Positions 62,109 to 64,000 of a stretch of DNA of 64,000 nucleotides are shown here, in pieces. The stretch lies in contig NZ_JANUDY010000006.1 in assembly GCF_024809975.1 (NCBI RefSeq), positions 124,001-188,000 of the forward strand, written 5' to 3'. This stretch comes from Comamonas sp. BIGb0152 (lineage in GTDB: Bacteria > Pseudomonadota > Gammaproteobacteria > Burkholderiales > Burkholderiaceae_C). Position 1 is the first letter of the stretch; each line of letters begins with the position of its first letter. The notes below the pieces were generated by a model. That model was given only the letters and a program-made list of their open reading frames with translations. It made no database searches and had not been told where the DNA came from. A program made the translations under genes and the position numbers.

Positions 62109-62255
62109 TCAATCCATCGTCGTGACCAGTGCCGCAATCCCCAGCACCAAAAAGATCACCGCGCAGACCCGGTGGATCCAGCGGATCGGCAGCTTCTTGG
62201 TGATCTTGTCGCCAAACCTGACCACCGGCGCATTGGCCAGCATCATGCCCGCAAC
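62109..62255 (-). pseudogene. 3' remnant of a GDT1/TMEM165 (UPF0016) family gene
   Basis: About 48 codons in frame on the minus strand encode the last part of a GDT1-family cation (Ca2+/Mn2+) transporter. AGMMLANAPVVRFGDKITKKLPIRW is the conserved C-terminal block with the final ANxPV/G-D pair, followed by the last helix and stop at 62109-62111. Homology stops upstream of AGMM at about 62252-62256, where the AT-rich insert begins. No start or upstream half is present in the window. In the same frame the insert's last gene ends in TAG at 62259-62261, immediately before the remnant. The gene was therefore cut by the insertion or recombination event. Confidence 0.8.
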
Positions 62256-62258
62256 TAT

Positions 62259-62750
62259 CTACTCGCCCTCTTTCTTATCTTCAAGAATCCAGAGAATTGC
62301 GTATCCACTGAGTGCACCCACTACACCAAATACCCCAACAAAGCTCGTAGTACTTAGCCAACTCCACCATTCCGACGCGCTGAGCCCACTATCAGCAAAG
62401 GTTTCTACGGCCATCCCATTGATAGATTGAGATGAATGGGTACTGATATATGTATACCAATAAGGCCATGTGTAGATACCGATAGGAATAATGGCTGCCA
62501 CATAGCCTGCAATCGCAAATATCCACCAACGCAGCCATTTTTTTCGTATTAGAAATATACCTATTGGCATACCTAAGATTAGCGCATTACCAAAAGAGCC
62601 AACAAAAGCTCCCCACAGAAATTTAAGATAATTCTCATCAGTGAGAGAATTGTTGCCTGACAGGCCTGGTCCAAGCACCCATAAAAACACAATACCCCAA
62701 GGGACTGCTCCGGCGACAAACGCAGCGCATAGTATTTTCAATTTACTCAT
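62259..62750 (-). CDS. small polytopic membrane protein in AT-rich insert
   Basis: Not recognised. A 163-residue protein with about four predicted membrane segments: ILCAAFVAGAVPWGIVFLWVLG, LKFLWGAFVGSFGNALILGMPIGIFLI, WWIFAIAGYVAAIIPIGIYTW and SFVGVFGVVGALSGYAILWIL. The C-terminus is charged (EDKKEGE). Its low-GC codon use contrasts strongly with putA next door. ATG 62750 fits the first membrane segment; the ribosome-binding site is weak, and an in-frame extension to 62789 exists. Small membrane proteins like this are often immunity or cargo genes in mobile regions, which is an inference from context only. Confidence 0.65.
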   Translation of the reverse strand: MSKLKILCAAFVAGAVPWGIVFLWVLGPGLSGNNSLTDENYLKFLWGAFVGSFGNALILGMPIGIFLIRKKWLRWWIFAIAGYVAAIIPIGIYTWPYWYTYISTHSSQSINGMAVETFADSGLSASEWWSWLSTTSFVGVFGVVGALSGYAILWILEDKKEGE

Positions 62751-62832
62751 TTTTCTATTTCTTGAAGCCGTTGCAAAAGCAAAAGCCACTTTAATAAATC
62801 AAATTTCCGCTTATGCCATATAACTTCTACAT

Positions 62833-63233
62833 CTAAATGGGCTTCATAAATTTATACTTGTCGCTCACCGCGTACGTCAACAACAAGGCTGCCACGGCAA
62901 ATTTAAAAGGTATCCCCACGATCGGCAGCAGCAATGATAAAAGATTACTGCCATTTACCTCAGGCAATAAAAATATTGCTGCCATCAATCCGCGCACGGA
63001 CATTACTGCGGAATTCAAATAGTAAAAAACCCCAGAAAATGACGTTTGATCTCAATGTTTCTTGAATACCTGTAGATACCGATTATACAGCCTGCATCAT
63101 TAAGCAAAACTATCACTTGTACGATATCAAAATCAGCTTTTAAAACCACCTATCCCATAGACTCAAAGCTAATACAACAGAGTACAACCAAAAAAAATAA
63201 AAACCATACCTTTTGCCATTTTGAATGTTTCAT
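62833..63233 (-). pseudogene. broken membrane-protein gene (amber codon plus homopolymer frameshift)
   Basis: Three ORF pieces on the minus strand read as one ~135-codon gene. The ATG at 63233 begins MKHSKWQKVWFLFFLVVLCCISFESMG and meets TAG at 63150-63152. The same frame continues VVLKADFDIVQVIVLLNDAGCIIGIYRYSRNIEIKRHFLGFF. At a run of six T (63024-63029) a one-base insertion would join it smoothly to YYLNSAVMSVRGLMAAIFLLPEV and the final helix up to KFMKPI at 62833. Four membrane segments result. The continuity of charge and hydrophobicity across both breaks argues for a recently decayed gene, though recoding or sequence error is possible. Family unknown. Confidence 0.55.
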
Positions 63234-63308
63234 CGCAAAATGACCTCTTTGAAACTATAAATCGACTTAATGTAGATTTTCTCAGCGCAACGAATATTTA
63301 AATATACA

Positions 63309-63800
63309 TTAAGATCTTACCAAACCGCTGCCGGATTTATATATAGTCGAAAAAGAACTTTTTTCTTTGCCTATGGTAATTTCAGAGATCAGAACGTCAT
63401 CAAAATCACATTTTTTAAAATCTGCAACGATAAAAGAATCAATCATTTTTACATTTTTAAATGAACATTCCTCAAACAGAATATCATTTGAAATACTTAA
63501 ATCATAAGACTCAATGTCAATGAATTGGCATTTGTAAAAATATACACCGAGTATATTGATTTTATTTAAATTCAAATTACTAAATTTACTGCCAAAGATA
63601 TCACATCCAAGTATTTCACCAAGCCAAATGTCACGCCCATAAAAACTACAGTTATTGATTTTTGAACCTTCAAATGTTACTGGAGGAAAATCCTTACCAG
63701 ACAGGCTTACATCACAAATTTCCACCCCACTGTATGTACAACCGCACGTTTTCATCCATCTTTTCTCATCCATAAACTCGGTCTGATTCACGACACGCAT
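63309..63800 (-). CDS. pentapeptide-repeat-like protein in AT-rich insert
   Basis: A 163-residue protein. From about residue 35 it shows five-residue periodicity with Phe/Leu/Ile at the central position (CSFYG RDIWL GEILG CDIFG SKFSN LNLNK INILG VYFYK CQFID, later CSFKN and CDFDD). This is typical of a right-handed pentapeptide beta-helix of a divergent sort. The N-terminus is RVVNQTEFMDEKRWMKTCGCTYSG. AGGAG seven to eight bases before ATG 63800 fixes the start; the frame stays open upstream but there it is antisense to a transposase fragment. Codon use is AT-rich. Pentapeptide proteins can protect gyrase or bind partners; the role here is unknown. Spacing suggests an operon with the two membrane genes downstream. 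Confidence 0.7.
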   Translation of the reverse strand: MRVVNQTEFMDEKRWMKTCGCTYSGVEICDVSLSGKDFPPVTFEGSKINNCSFYGRDIWLGEILGCDIFGSKFSNLNLNKINILGVYFYKCQFIDIESYDLSISNDILFEECSFKNVKMIDSFIVADFKKCDFDDVLISEITIGKEKSSFSTIYKSGSGLVRS

Positions 63801-63825
63801 TACTGCACTCCTAAAGATTATTACG

Positions 63826-64000
63826 CGCCACGACTTGTTCTTGGCTGTCGACAGTGCCACGCGATTGGTATTTGTACATTTAAAGACGGCCAACTCGGCG
63901 GCGGGCGACAAGGCATTCTTGAGGATCTTGCACAACGCCTGCCCGATCAAGATAACCAGGCTGCTAATAGATAGCAGTAAACAGTTTGCTGATCGCTTGT
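63826..64000 (+). mobile_element. IS481-family transposase fragment (5'-truncated, degenerate)
   Basis: A plus-strand frame open to the window edge encodes RHDLFLAVDSATRLVFVHLKT, then AGDKAFLRILHNACPIKITRLLIDSSKQFADRL. This aligns by eye with the DDE core of IS481-type transposases (xxLFVAIDRATRWVFV, AFLxxLxxACPIRIxxxLTDNGKEFTDRL). The first catalytic Asp (AVD) and the second (LID) are kept, but the normally invariant DNGKEF is eroded to DSSKQF. The N-terminal helix-turn-helix part and the left inverted repeat are absent, so this is a remnant. GC content is higher than in the insert it borders. Confidence 0.78.

Follow-up and report, generated by a model that had tools for sequence, protein, structure and literature searches.

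The three minus-strand reading-frame pieces at 62833-63233 of the window (the whole stretch of 64,000 nucleotides of Comamonas sp. BIGb0152 that was analysed) most likely represent the remains of a single gene of about 133 codons for a four-helix membrane protein, which is now a pseudogene. We put the probability of this reading at roughly 0.78. A small membrane-protein gene would have come with an acquired type VI VgrG/effector island, as cargo of its AT-rich tail, and would then have been lost by a nonsense change, seen as a TAG codon, and a small indel. Both changes would be mutations, the gene would no longer be functional, and the locus is probably an ordinary pseudogene. Decay fitted best because the tail is AT-rich and acquired, a second broken gene and a transposase remnant lie in it, and no preserved reading across the breaks was found.

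The reading frames were examined by inspecting the sequence and its open reading frames. As the earlier note had proposed, the three pieces joined if one TAG was passed and one frame change was made; the resulting frame has 133 codons. Piece A (63150-63233, minus strand) begins with an ATG at 63233, comprises 27 codons with a hydrophobic segment and ends at the in-frame TAG at 63150-63152, which was found where it had been reported. Piece B (63015-63149, minus strand) continues the frame of piece A past this TAG for 44 codons, up to a TGA at 63015-63017. Piece C (62833-63051, minus strand) lies in another frame, carries two hydrophobic segments and covers 72 codons from stop to stop, ending at a TAG at 62833-62835. 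Its frame was open back to 63051, with a TGA before it, which corrects the earlier description. The hydropathy analysis of the joined frame revealed four hydrophobic segments, each with a mean of 1.5 or more over 19 residues. A Shine-Dalgarno-like AGAGGT was located at 63243-63248 on the minus strand, 9 bases upstream of the ATG at 63233, and matched GGAGGT at 5 of 6 positions. A pattern scan of 62200-63900, which is weak evidence either way, detected no terminator and, on the minus strand, no match resembling a sigma-70 promoter. The run of six T (minus strand) to which the frame change had been assigned was present at 63024-63029, and it is the likeliest site of the change. The frames of pieces B and C overlap over 63018-63051 (minus strand), where the frame change must fall, so the shift need not lie in the T run that this overlap contains, and the indel is confined only to 63018-63051.

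The surroundings of the broken gene were then characterized. It was observed that the gene sits in the AT-rich tail of a type VI island of about 10.6 kb, carrying VgrG and PAAR genes, between putA and gdt1; the GC content was 0.379 over 62833-63233 and 0.679 in putA. Upstream on the same strand lie genes for VgrG, a DUF2169 protein and a Tox-PAAR-like protein, and a 403-codon open reading frame. The latter matched no Pfam or NCBIfam family and was taken as a candidate effector from its position alone. Beyond VgrG in the island, an AP2-domain-like protein was noted at L002:10659-11726 (E 2.6e-6, under Pfam's cut-off). A VipB sheath gene was found elsewhere in the genome. We compared 19 relatives' loci of 2.4-3.1 kb, and the island was absent between putA and gdt1 in all three relatives showing both genes (L026, L027 and L042); putA was not found in the short stretch of the other 16. 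At the left island border, a displaced copy of the gdt1 3' end (62109-62250) forms, with L002:12822-12963, a 142-bp direct repeat of 94% identity that flanks the island, as if the island had brought its own gdt1 end. In 19 of 19 relatives, BLAST identity to gdt1, with aligned lengths varying slightly, was higher for this left copy than for the one that the gene now carries. Pfam recognised no site-specific integrase among the island proteins submitted to it.

Further signs of decay were observed in the island tail, which contains three pentapeptide-repeat copies. Copy 3 (63309-63800, minus strand) is intact (Pentapeptide_4, E 2.7e-6, under Pfam's cut-off) and 48% identical to copy 1. Copy 2, located just right of the window (L002:4403-4868), is split over three frames and contains two frameshifts; its two matched pieces showed 48% and 47% identity. 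One of its frame switches falls at a run of six A/T and the other lies away from any run of six. Copy 3 is adjoined by the remnant of a truncated transposase (rve) on the plus strand, which starts at 63835, reaches 64000 and continues past the window (L002:3836-4339; Pfam rve_3, E 1.8e-8). On the other side of the broken gene, an intact gene for a 163-aa membrane protein of an unnamed family was found at 62259-62750 (minus strand), with scattered distant relatives. None of the other 52 genus genomes yielded a relative of this neighbour; among the 398 other family genomes, 3 gave distant matches, with E values of 2.3e-8, 7.3e-8 and 4.5e-4 (the last one short). At two of these three loci, neither the broken protein nor any of seven other island proteins had a match within about 10 kb on each side.

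To search for homologues, the read-through translation of the joined pieces, with X at both joints, was used as the protein query. This protein had no match in Pfam, NCBIfam, PHROGs, PADLOC, plasmids or phages, and the PDB yielded only weak matches (E 0.11-0.84). Peptide patterns matched 53 stretches in 84,980 species and two stretches in viral contigs, with no confirmed relative in either collection. In the samples of 53 genus, 399 family, 399 order, 369 class and 214 phylum genomes, which overlap and each include the genome itself, only its own copy was convincing. With the own genome counted, matches were found in 6/53 genus genomes (E up to 10), 11/399 family genomes (0.05), 3/399 order genomes (0.01), 34/369 class genomes (cut-off 0.2) and 1/214 phylum genomes (cut-off 0.01). 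The family and order samples gave 12 outside matches (E 0.0036-0.0486, 14.9-18.7 bits), 11 of which lie inside stop-free open reading frames of 253-759 codons, while one crosses five stops. All of these except L019 and L021 were aligned, and five of the ten aligned matches were analysed with Pfam. L015, L016 and L018 aligned alike to piece C but were M48 peptidases, L013 carried a glycosyl transferase family domain, and L049 had no Pfam family. Among the 33 outside class genomes with a match, from which three loci were taken into the alignment, many matches cross stops, and the best one (E 1.5e-4), which was rejected, passes through one TAG and four TAA codons. The genus match that was inspected (G033; G010, G017, G018 and G031 were left out) is a 48-codon open frame spanning the junction of two larger open reading frames and was likewise rejected. 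In summary, the collections searched yielded no relative of the broken gene, either intact or in pieces.

We considered whether the gene might be intact in the organism, with the stop and the shift being sequencing or assembly errors. A T6 run is a usual error site and a possible place of the frame change here, and one frameshift of pentapeptide copy 2 in the same tail likewise falls at a run of six A/T. Against this, 28 A/T runs of 6-7 bases were counted within 61 open reading frames of at least 150 codons (68,865 bases) of the same 79-kb stretch, a control that is partly circular because these frames were chosen as open. In addition, the assembly scores as 100% complete and 0.03% contaminated, the stop lies in non-homopolymer sequence and does not resemble the usual indel error, and the second frameshift of copy 2 is away from any run of six. 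Error is an improbable explanation, though the likeliest of the alternatives.

Alternatively, the pieces might be frames left open by chance in non-coding DNA rich in T, with no gene ever present there. To evaluate this, we determined the longest ATG-started path with one stop and one frame change in the 555-base gap between the flanking genes, using dinucleotide shuffles of the gap as the null. Since the place had been picked before the tests were made, the following frequencies are to be read as after-the-fact figures: a path of at least 133 codons was obtained in 88/3000 and 162/5000 shuffles (about 3%) and, in a run of 500 shuffles, in 17 on the gene strand compared with 29 on the opposite strand. 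Length alone is therefore weak evidence, and it is consistent with chance, as are the hydrophobic residues that T-rich DNA encodes anyway and the lack of a homologue in the searches. In pieces A and C, the proposed frame did not stand out by codon-usage scores, which were too noisy to decide. However, at least 133 codons together with at least four hydrophobic segments occurred in only 3/3000 and 2/5000 shuffles, and this length combined with a Shine-Dalgarno site matching at 5/6 positions or more was seen in 3/5000. When 56 overlapping windows were taken from the antisense strand of this AT-rich region, 5 were found to reach 133 codons, and none of these had four hydrophobic segments. The joined frame thus exceeds chance on length with four segments and on length with a ribosome-binding site. 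The latter is correctly placed before piece A. Against this, the start of the intact neighbour at 62259-62750 matches at only 3 of 6 positions, so a good ribosome-binding site is not a general feature here. Among the pieces, positional composition reached significance only in the last 63 codons of C (G 19.3, nominal p 0.004), and not in A or B; over the whole path it did so weakly (p 0.03). One former gene is likelier than chance, to which we assign a low probability, slightly below that of error. The idea of one interrupted membrane-protein gene drew support from the shuffle controls, from the start site and from the decay seen in the surroundings; the homologues that might have confirmed it were not found.

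Still less probable was the possibility that the pieces are independent small membrane proteins. Every piece is open, and pieces B and C carry GTG and TTG starts. Nevertheless, Pfam contained no family for piece A, B or C on its own, PHROGs none for B or C and NCBIfam none for C; the ribosome-binding-site match was 3/6 for piece B and at best 4/6 before any start codon of piece C, compared with 5/6 for piece A.

Programmed recoding, in which TAG read-through and -1 frameshifting would yield the joined protein, is scarcely credible: the breaks are few in number and the T run may be where the frame changes, but two separate events would be required, no homologue was available to show conservation, and the RNA 3' of the breaks formed no more stable folds than shuffled sequence did (z -0.54 and -0.06, pseudoknots being outside the scope of the folding). 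A standard slippery heptamer has the form X XXY YYZ, and the codons at the T6 run, read by eye as GGG TTT TTT ACT, contain none. There was no sign of purposeful reading across the breaks, and it is equally far-fetched that read-through, with slippage at the T run, gives a little joined protein. Among the three causes that the earlier note listed, decay is favoured, sequencing error is possible and recoding is without support.

If the locus is a pseudogene, the former gene could tentatively be regarded as an orphan immunity gene, which is a guess from position. It lies 3' of the VgrG/PAAR effector module on the same strand, as an orphan immunity gene would, and Pfam, NCBIfam, PHROGs and PADLOC revealed no homology to a known immunity protein. 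It is rather doubtful that the gene in its intact form encoded a four-helix membrane protein, hitherto undescribed, with an immunity or cargo role in type VI islands, and that the only trace found of it is the one described here.

In Vibrio cholerae, arrays of orphan immunity genes have been described 3' of T6SS clusters (PMC5361080). In both cases, a series of small genes gathered through module insertion follows 3' of a VgrG/effector module; they differ in that the orphan genes of V. cholerae were assigned by similarity to known immunity genes (PMC5361080), whereas no relative was found for the broken gene. In the esaG array of tandem immunity paralogues of a T7SS, one member was annotated as a pseudogene and is split into two smaller open reading frames (PMC9484751), which makes it comparable to pentapeptide copy 2. 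That array belongs to another kind of secretion system, and no paralogy between the four-helix piece and its neighbours was seen here.

Taken alone, the locus carries little weight: it is a further gene that has probably decayed, located in the tail of a type VI effector island that was acquired. The case suggests that small genes are collected and shed in tails of this kind, and that a stop with a possible homopolymer shift in them should be read first as decay and not as recoding. Ordinary bacterial pseudogenes in acquired islands may combine a stop and a frameshift with low GC content and a transposase remnant nearby. The broken gene shares all of these traits, although no intact relative was found as proof of the original. 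Collectively, the comparison places it in a kind that is already known, of which it is an ordinary instance.
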